This document shows positions 32,331 to 33,444 of a stretch of DNA of 33,444 nt, piece after piece (within the stretch, counting starts at the first letter, position 1; every line of letters starts with the position of its first letter). The DNA is taken from assembly GCA_017470005.1 (NCBI GenBank), contig JAFUFH010000079.1, positions 1-33,444 on the forward strand. The letters are read 5' to 3'. The position numbers and the translations under genes are program-made. This stretch comes from Bacilli bacterium (GTDB lineage: Bacteria; Bacillota_I; Bacilli_A; RFN20; CAG-288). A model generated the notes under the pieces. It was not told where the DNA came from, did not search any database, and worked only from the letters and a program-made list of their open reading frames with translations.

Positions 32331-32338
32331 GTGGCACA

Positions 32339-32366
32339 TTTGTGACAACTGGTATGGTAATATAAT
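32339..32366 (+). promoter_or_regulatory. Promoter of Nif11-like peptide gene A
   Basis: TTTGTG (32339-32344) and TATAAT (32361-32366) are spaced 16 bp. The -35 region includes the small palindrome TTGTGACAA and is nearly identical in front of peptide gene B, so both are likely controlled together. Confidence 0.65.
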
Positions 32367-32389
32367 ATTGACAAAGGAGAGCTTGAAGC

Positions 32390-32689
32390 ATGAAAGAAGA
32401 TTTATTTAAAGGTTTAACTGACGAACAAATTGCAAAAGTAAAAGCTTGCAAAAATAGTGATGAGCTTTTAATCCTTGCTAAAAAAGAAGGTATTGAATTA
32501 ACTGATGAACAACTCACCGCGATCAGTGGTGGCGGAGCTTGTAGCGTTGTTTCTGATATTGGAGATAAAATCAATCCGTTTGATTGCCCCAAATGTGGCG
32601 CTAATGGTCCAAAAAAAGATGGTGATAAACGCACTTGCAAAAAGTGTGGCCATGTGTGGTATGTAGACGATAGTTACCTCCCACATTAA
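32390..32689 (+). CDS. Nif11-type leader peptide with zinc-ribbon-like core (A)
   Basis: The product is 99 residues. Residues 1-49 look like a Nif11-type natural-product leader: MKEDLFKGLTDEQIAKVKAC, then ELLILAKKEGIELTDEQL and AISGGG, a double-glycine cleavage site as used by C39-peptidase transporters. The remaining about 50 residues would be the released core: ACSVVSDIGDKINPFD, then CPKCG, a 13-residue loop, CKKCGHVW and an aromatic/acidic tail. Two CXXC pairs suggest a zinc ribbon rather than a thioether or azole peptide. No modification enzyme or C39 transporter is in the window. GGAG at 32377-32380 supports the start. The role is inferred: a secreted bacteriocin- or signal-type peptide. 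Confidence 0.75.
   Translation: MKEDLFKGLTDEQIAKVKACKNSDELLILAKKEGIELTDEQLTAISGGGACSVVSDIGDKINPFDCPKCGANGPKKDGDKRTCKKCGHVWYVDDSYLPH
32525..32599 (+). repeat. 75-bp block identical between peptide genes, copy A
   Basis: This block matches 33099-33173 at every base. It covers the double-glycine site and the first part of the core up to CPKCG. The sequences differ on both sides, most strongly in the zinc-ribbon loop and tail. Confidence 0.9.
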
Positions 32690-32713
32690 GCATTGTTAAA
32701 CGTATGATTATAG

Positions 32714-32737
32714 CCGAGTGAAATATCTCGGTTTTTT
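32714..32737 (+). terminator. Terminator behind peptide gene A
   Basis: CCGAG (32714-32718) pairs with CTCGG (32727-32731), followed by six T. Confidence 0.8.
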
Positions 32738-32812
32738 CTTATTCCCGAACAAGGAAAAACACGACAAAATATGGATAGGTAAATTTAGGCAAAAGTGGAT
32801 GGATGAGTTTGT

Positions 32813-32906
32813 ATAACTATAGCAATGTCGCTGTCATAAGCCATTTATCCGGCTTTTTAAAAAATTTATCTAATATAGATTAGGCCTCCTCGGAGTTCTT
32901 TTTTGT
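32813..32906 (+). repeat. Spacer-terminator unit, copy 3
   Basis: It is homologous to the two units behind the tRNA and the tRNA fragment (CATTTATCC; TCTAATATAGATTAGGCCTC), but no tRNA 3' end precedes it. The hairpin is imperfect here (GAGTTCT against AGGCCTC), so termination should be weaker. The gap 32690-32963 holds this unit, the terminator of gene A and the promoter of gene B; I see no other gene. Confidence 0.75.
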
Positions 32907-32912
32907 GGCACT

Positions 32913-32940
32913 TTTGTGACAAATGGTATGGTAATATAAT
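32913..32940 (+). promoter_or_regulatory. Promoter of Nif11-like peptide gene B
   Basis: TTTGTG (32913-32918) and TATAAT (32935-32940) have 16-bp spacing, with the same GTGGCAC and TTGTGACAA context as gene A. Confidence 0.65.
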
Positions 32941-32963
32941 GTTGATAAAGGAGAGCTTAAAGT

Positions 32964-33257
32964 ATGAAGGAAGATTTGTTAAAAGGCTTAACGGAAGAGC
33001 AAATTGCAAAAGTAAAAGCTTGCAAAAACCACGAGGAGCTTTTAATCCTTGCTAAAAAAGAAGGTATTGAACTTAGCGATGAACAATTAGAAACCGTTAG
33101 TGGTGGCGGAGCTTGTAGCGTTGTTTCTGATATTGGAGATAAAATCAATCCGTTTGATTGCCCCAAATGTGGCAAAAACCGTCCTATAAAAGACGGCAAT
33201 AAGTACACATGCGAGAAGTGTGGCTACACATGGACATATAATAATTCTCCAGTGTAA
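32964..33257 (+). CDS. Nif11-type leader peptide with zinc-ribbon-like core (B)
   Basis: The product is 97 residues, a paralogue of peptide A. The leader is almost the same (MKEDLLKGLTEEQIAKVKAC; ELLILAKKEGIELSDEQL; TVSGGG), and the core again starts ACSVVSDIGDKINPFD with CPKCG. Behind it the loop (KNRPIKDGNKYT), the second pair CEKCGYTW and the tail (TYNNSPV) differ from A. The cysteine spacing is preserved, so selection appears to keep the metal site while varying exposed residues. GGAG at 32951-32954 supports the start. It has its own promoter and terminator. Partner enzymes are not in the window. Confidence 0.75.
   Translation: MKEDLLKGLTEEQIAKVKACKNHEELLILAKKEGIELSDEQLETVSGGGACSVVSDIGDKINPFDCPKCGKNRPIKDGNKYTCEKCGYTWTYNNSPV
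33099..33173 (+). repeat. 75-bp block identical between peptide genes, copy B
   Basis: This is the exact match of 32525-32599; see the findings for what it suggests about recent duplication or gene conversion. Confidence 0.9.
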
Positions 33258-33279: not shown

Positions 33280-33303
33280 ACCGAGTGTAAAAGCTCGGTT
33301 TTT
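33280..33303 (+). terminator. Terminator behind peptide gene B
   Basis: ACCGAG (33280-33285) pairs with CTCGGT (33294-33299), followed by T. The intron begins about 3 bases further on. Confidence 0.85.
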
Positions 33304-33305
33304 CT

Positions 33306-33444
33306 GTGTGATAGGCATGTCACGTGCCTGCGGTGAAAGTCCGTCGCTGGGTGAACCCACATGAAACCCCAGCATATACAGCCAAATCCAACCTTACTCG
33401 GGCAACCGAGGCGGGGAAAGAAGGAAGAGGCAAAACCGAGACCT
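33306..33444 (+). mobile_element. Group II intron, 5' end (domain I), probably class IIC
   Basis: The sequence starts with GTGTG, the consensus 5' end of group II introns. Hairpins follow that resemble domain I (AGGCA/TGCCT around 33313-33330; GCTGGG with CCCAGC), then ACAGCCAA-type sequence. It runs off the window edge, so its reverse transcriptase and 3' end are not seen. It starts immediately downstream of a terminator hairpin, the target type of class IIC introns. Confidence 0.75.

Follow-up and report, generated by a model that had tools for sequence, protein, structure and literature searches.

Two genes with divergent Nif11-like leaders as probable members of a dispersed collection of exported zinc-ribbon miniproteins in gut bacteria

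Two neighbouring genes at the end of the window (the whole 33,444-nt stretch of DNA analysed) probably belong to a library of zinc-ribbon miniproteins that is dispersed over the genome and whose members are exported. According to this explanation, which we regard as the probable one when taken as a whole, a helical Nif11-like leader on each precursor would direct it to one and the same NHLP-type C39-peptidase ABC exporter, whose genes lie elsewhere in the genome, the exporter would cut after the double glycine, and the core of about 50 residues would be released or displayed. The core would fold around one zinc ion bound by two CxxC knuckles and carry one further Cys at its extreme N-terminus, and one upstream element would switch on all precursors together with Sec-secreted surface proteins.

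A reading of the window made from the sequence alone (the sequence-only reading) had described an open reading frame pair with leaders ending in SGGG and cores holding two CXXC pairs. Both frames are present on the plus strand, and the region is laid out as follows:

32331–32347, plus strand: upstream element 1, GTGGCACATTTGTGACA, with two GTGRCA repeats 11 bp apart
32358–32363, plus strand: extended -10 of promoter 1 (TGG-TAATAT), from the sequence and the logo
32373–32379, plus strand: ribosome-binding site AAAGGAG of gene 1, from the sequence
32390–32689, plus strand: gene of precursor 1 (P0001, 99 aa); leader residues 1–48 at 32390–32533, core residues 49–99
32525–32599, plus strand: 75-nt patch from SGGG to CPKCG, identical to 33099–33173; probable gene conversion
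32534–32686, plus strand: core 1, predicted to be exported; N-terminal Cys51, knuckles C66PKC69 and C83KKC86, Trp90
32714–32738, plus strand: terminator-like hairpin CCGAG...CTCGG with a T run, 3′ of gene 1, found by eye
32905–32921, plus strand: upstream element 2, GTGGCACTTTTGTGACA
32932–32937, plus strand: extended -10 of promoter 2 (TGG-TAATAT), from the sequence and the logo
32947–32953, plus strand: ribosome-binding site AAAGGAG of gene 2, from the sequence
32964–33257, plus strand: gene of precursor 2 (P0002, 97 aa); leader residues 1–48 at 32964–33107, core residues 49–97
33099–33173, plus strand: partner copy of the 75-nt identical patch
33108–33254, plus strand: core 2, predicted to be exported; Cys51, C66PKC69, C83EKC86, Trp90; modelled with a zinc-ribbon beta hairpin
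33280–33303, plus strand: terminator-like hairpin ACCGAG...CTCGGT with a T run, 3′ of gene 2, found by eye

The two precursors are 78% identical. SGGG ends the leader in both, and both cores read CPKCG and then C[KE]KCG, their inner cysteines being separated by 13 residues. The pair is not a chance pattern, as 11 such leaders were found in the genome and more than 230 relatives in public genomes. Two further features, absent from the earlier description, are a fifth Cys just after the double glycine (GGGACS) and a promoter element shared by the two upstream regions.

The 11 genes with the same leader lie on six contigs of the window's genome (1.93 Mb, 92 contigs); nine encode zinc-ribbon cores and two encode short cores. 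A scan of public genomes yielded at least 234 relatives. Those listed are mostly from metagenome-assembled genomes titled Erysipelotrichaceae, Bacilli or Bacillales, with Lachnospiraceae in some, and the titles of many give a ruminant origin. From the loci of the matches listed, 226 usable distinct peptides were extracted, and 222 were left after removal of four shorter than 50 aa. The cores are diverse, 212 of them falling into 94 clusters at a similarity of about 72%, and the genes are often arrayed: among 133 consecutive precursor pairs on the same strand, 101 are separated by less than 300 bp. Viral contigs and plasmids yielded no relatives. Concerted evolution of leaders within genomes was considered and rejected, as leaders of paralogs with different cores showed no clear effect (identity 0.735 within vs. 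0.721 between genomes). The open-access full texts searched held no earlier description of zinc-ribbon cores behind Nif11/NHLP leaders. This is apparently an undescribed, large family of small proteins of gut, largely rumen, bacteria with hundreds of members.

The leaders of the window precursors (residues 1–48) end in ELTDEQLTAISGG and ELSDEQLETVSGG, and the published leader ends are ELSDEELEAVAGG for N11P and ELSDEQLDAVAGG for NHLP (Haft et al., PMC2887384). Hydrophobic residues stand at V/I-4, L-7 and L-12 before the double glycine, as expected of a C39-processed leader. The curated models match weakly: TIGR03798 gave 16.9 and 16.6 bits, about half of the cut-off of 32.3, and PF07862 (Nif11) gave 12.3 and 15.3 bits against a gathering score of 23.8. 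At E ≤ 0.001, TIGR03798 matched 54 of 84 relatives (best 5e-6) and PF07862 matched 42 of the 84. Because these matches fall below the cut-offs, the window leader is best described from its sequence as a divergent, degenerate Nif11-like leader and not as a formal family member. The Nif11-like leader that had been proposed is thus supported through its fitting C39-type cleavage motif, at scores below the thresholds of the curated models. The double glycine is invariant in an alignment of 84 relatives and occupies the expected place in 217 of the 222 testable full-length relatives among the matches listed; the other five comprise one with GA, three in which a longer N-terminal part displaces GG and one that is frame-disrupted. 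The sequence-only reading had named, as findings that would speak against it, a missing leader-model match, a genome lacking any C39-type transporter and homologues that lose GG while keeping the remainder, the last implying an intracellular zinc-ribbon protein. None of these was fully encountered; the leader-model match falls below its cut-off.

A C39-type transporter, which that reading had suggested looking for in the source genome, is encoded on another contig, C65. The gene order there is a 406-aa protein, a radical SAM/SPASM protein (rSAM), a short leader peptide, a 130-aa HlyD-like protein, a C39-peptidase ABC protein, a second ABC protein, a STAS protein, a STAS-phosphotransferase and a SpoIIE-phosphatase/HATPase. 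The best NCBIfam model for the C39 ABC protein is TIGR03796 (844.5 bits, just under the cut-off of 853.3) and for the second ABC protein TIGR03797 (658.5 bits, just under 709.4), and the HlyD-like protein reaches 21.6 of the 156.2 bits demanded by TIGR03794, over 48 positions only. The C39 motifs QLEALECGAAS, IHWGGGHFVVL and NDPAKG appear intact by eye. The 406-aa protein has no Pfam match, and a label of HipA given to it was dropped for that reason; members of its family (L003:477-1697; G000:C6 about 3275) lie beside exporters and also behind the common upstream element.

The exporter locus recurs in relatives, and a zinc-ribbon precursor lies inside or adjoining it in L118, L098, L105, L108, L143 and others. 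One locus (L147:7598-12015) contains a second rSAM/HlyD/ABC/ABC set, with an ABC protein 63% identical and a zinc-ribbon precursor whose leader is different but ends alike in GG. Co-occurrence was scored in 279 genomes of the order, using the genome's own first ABC protein as exporter probe (E ≤ 1e-150) and a leader threshold of E ≤ 1e-9; TIGR03796 was rejected as a probe, its ABC domain making matches too unspecific. Leaders were found in 45 of the 279 genomes, the exporter in 37 and both in 34 (Fisher p about 1e-30, a value that overstates independence as the genomes are related). Most of the 11 leader-positive genomes lacking a detected exporter are incomplete, but one is 94% complete. Positive genomes have a median of 8 leader genes, with up to 25 candidates scored. 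Both the linkage and the co-occurrence that mark an NHLP/NHLM export system were therefore found. Strong leader matches together with a similarly scoring transporter occur in only the window's genome among 23 of its own family, which points to horizontal transfer of the leader/exporter system. At L140:6307-11256 a transporter 48% identical was seen with a YcaO gene and two small GG peptides in its vicinity; this is probably a RiPP cluster of the azole type.

We applied a strict zinc-ribbon pattern to the cores of the 222 full-length relatives among the matches listed, and 209 conformed; all 209 also have an additional Cys no more than five residues from the double glycine. In a second count (n = 212 cores) the first Cys stands 1–4 residues after the glycine run, and each core has 5, 6 or 7 Cys. 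Cores read CPxCGSx...CxxCGxxW; in the core alignment C2, C17, C20, C34 and C37 never vary, and Trp41 hardly does. The four knuckle Cys are likewise invariant in the 84-sequence alignment, in keeping with the predicted zinc-ribbon fold, and the fifth Cys is found in the short cores too. A core profile searched against the PDB matched the zinc ribbons of RPB9 and TFIIS (1qyp, 9.9e-7); certain other matches were C2H2 fingers whose Cys spacing is only partly common. Predicted structures are of middling confidence (pLDDT 63 and 71), and the core model shows a ribbon hairpin with pLDDT 81–87 over residues 21–40 and 71 overall. With this model as query, the highest-ranked Foldseek matches included TFS4 and ribbon chains of RNA polymerase I, at a probability of about 0.9 or more but with E values of 0.04–0.1; no match reached 0.001. 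Such weak Foldseek E values are usual for a domain so small. The full-length model was too weak as a fold-search query and was dropped. The profile match and the modelled hairpin together favour the zinc-ribbon-like core that had been proposed, and the core would hold one zinc ion through its two CxxC knuckles.

The element GTGRCACNTYTGTGRCA was found upstream of all 11 precursors in the window's genome, which contains 14 exact copies, or 26 with up to two mismatches against 2 in the reversed control. With the same tolerance it occurs in 129 of 220 upstream regions of relatives (reversed control 0), at a fixed position about 42 bp 5′ of the ATG; precursor genes lacking it mostly lie close behind another precursor or belong to Lachnospiraceae. 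Twelve further genomes have 7–24 copies each, with 0 in the control. In the promoter logo, a pair of GTGRCA repeats spaced by 11 bp is accompanied at a fixed distance by an extended -10 (TGnTAnnAT), and the combination resembles an activator-dependent promoter. At 104 element sites in relatives' loci, a sample biased to precursor-rich loci, the element precedes 84 precursors and 9 signal-peptide-like N-termini, and 11 sites were not assigned to a gene. In the window's genome the element also precedes non-precursor genes, among them those of lipoproteins and of other proteins that look secreted, two copies of the 406-aa family and the gene of an ABC-type ATPase. Related secreted lipoproteins with a DVPYV-like motif lie behind the element at G000:C58:4086, C72:5479 and C51:23724, and one of their relatives (L104:10369-12546) matches peptidase S41. 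From the shared GTGRCACNTYTGTGRCA we infer that precursors are co-expressed with Sec-secreted surface proteins. Export after cleavage at the double glycine appears well supported, since GG is kept, leader and exporter co-occur and the element is common to Sec-secreted proteins.

For dN/dS we used reciprocal best pairs between different genomes, binned by leader pS; a calculation on pairs chosen by core identity was discarded, being biased by the selection of pairs. Core dN/dS is 0.26 at leader dS 0.21 and 0.20 at leader dS 0.63, with dS saturated at larger distances, and exceeds 1 in 7 of 626 pairs. Core types are also conserved across genomes. By these estimates the cores are under purifying selection, contrary to the diversifying pressure expected by the sequence-only reading. 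The same result bears on the proposal of that reading that the cores are class II-like bacteriocins, killing or inhibiting related bacteria. Although GG leaders, C39 export, tandem arrays and many core types per genome fit such a role, we consider it possible but rather unlikely: besides the purifying selection, no immunity gene or recurrent small partner gene tracks the precursors, many unrelated cores stand behind one element common to secreted surface proteins, and the median core charge is merely +1 (n = 212). Recurrent neighbours of precursors are few, a ParE/Phd-type pair among them. The likeliest role of the exported miniproteins, proposed only tentatively, is that of co-regulated binding modules that would act outside the cell, either in competition or at its surface.

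A second alternative, which we hold to be unlikely, is that the cores are modified RiPPs, the rSAM/SPASM protein acting on the N-terminal Cys (thioether or similar) and the zinc ribbon being a scaffold or never zinc-loaded. Zinc-ribbon cores invariably have the Cys after GG, short cores have it as well, and the rSAM gene, the sole candidate modification enzyme noticed, belongs to the exporter locus and occurs in 34 of the 279 genomes, 32 of them with leaders. However, no modification enzyme recurs in the precursor arrays, and rSAM was not found in the leader-positive genomes G079, G212 and G280, whose assemblies are possibly incomplete; zinc ribbons were verified in G280. Moreover, the rSAM gene usually adjoins a separate short precursor that carries the family leader and whose charged core frequently terminates in RK[IF]-[DE]-S; the two are neighbours in most exporter loci:

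L003:3187-3375 (also L137, L138, L145, L118 and others): short non-zinc precursor beside rSAM

Because it is adjacent to rSAM, which was not found in some leader-positive genomes, this short peptide seems the likelier rSAM substrate than the zinc-ribbon cores, or possibly it is a signal. As the Cys is common to both kinds of core, some cores may be modified. A radical SAM protein 43% identical is found at L142:645-2473, next to a Nif11-type precursor that is longer and whose Cys-rich core is not a ribbon and contains KRKFND.

We find it improbable that the system is one of extracellular signals, with the short rSAM-adjacent precursor as pheromone and the zinc-ribbon peptides as co-exported outputs or signals. 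In most loci the short precursor does adjoin the exporter, one element is common to the regulon, and the exporter locus includes SpoIIE and STAS regulators; yet no receptor or regulator was identified, and the link is positional only. That these are intracellular zinc-ribbon proteins with incidental N-terminal helices and GG is very improbable: zinc ribbons are usually cytosolic and the cores resemble those of TFIIS and RPB9, but GG and leader are kept in 217 of 222 relatives, linkage to the C39 exporter is tight, and the L147 zinc ribbon stands behind a different GG leader.

Leaders of the Nif11/NHLP type are taken to mark enzymatically modified natural products. The prochlorosins (ProcA/ProcM) likewise combine many Nif11-leader precursors and diverse cores with one machine whose genes lie at another site. 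Prochlorosins have short cores with lanthionine bridges, whereas Cys4 domains are predicted here and the locus is without a lanthionine synthetase. The nearest systems are N11P/NHLP, LahA/LahT and type II pamtides. As in the window leaders, N11P (TIGR03798/PF07862) and NHLP (TIGR03793) leaders end in ELxDEQLxxVxGG; the NHLM set (TIGR03794/03796/03797) similarly provides two-ABC plus HlyD export, and the precursors form large, genome-scattered paralogous families (Haft et al. 2010, PMC2887384). In contrast to these, the leader here is shorter (48 aa) and under the curated cut-off, the predicted zinc-ribbon core of about 50 aa replaces short, heterocycle- or lanthionine-forming ones, the locus has no YcaO or LanM, and the HlyD partner has only 130 aa. 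LahA1-9/LahT of Lachnospiraceae C6A11 share Nif11-type GG leaders, several diverse cores and a C39 AMS/PCAT transporter; the two LahA cores with quoted masses have 2.4–2.7 kDa behind 9–10 kDa (tagged) leaders, and zinc is unmentioned (PMC6363468). The type II pamtide precursor FcaA is also RiPP-like with a predicted zinc ribbon, but it has CxxCxGxG repeats of the DnaJ type around a central Asp, a methyltransferase is its neighbour, and Nif11 is unmentioned (PMC10787088); the type II pamtide core pattern CxxCxGxG-D-CxxCxGxG is absent from the cores here, and no O-methyltransferase (PAMT) caught attention next to the precursors. TFIIS, RPB9 and TFS ribbons are alike in knuckle pattern and predicted fold but belong to cytosolic transcription factors, whereas the ribbon here follows an export leader and has an extra N-terminal Cys.

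We see about an even chance that these miniproteins represent a new class, Cys4 zinc ribbons that are exported without enzymatic modification, with a conserved-core library, an obligatory free N-terminal Cys, one C39 exporter and one regulon with secreted surface proteins. In the anaerobic gut, Cys4-zinc sites and free thiols can persist. Leader-exporter logic would here be coupled to a domain predicted to fold around metal, in hundreds of genes of gut bacteria. If so, the cargo of C39 exporters extends to small zinc proteins, a point relevant to how these transporters take up cargo able to fold around a metal, and the family represents a library of anaerobic extracellular zinc domains; GTGRCACNTYTGTGRCA offers a handle for finding the whole secreted regulon.

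Outside the 75-nt identical patch, 23.6% of compared sites differ between the two window genes, and such an identical run arose in 0 of 20,000 permutations. The patch is probably a gene conversion across the leader/core junction, to which part of the conservation noted by the sequence-only reading would be due. An Rfam search with the window end and L014 gave no match. The contig-end sequence at 33300–33444, which starts with GTGTG directly 3′ of the terminator-like hairpin in the window, recurs at the end of contig C92 (L014) and resembles the 5′ end of a group II intron of the terminator-associated kind.
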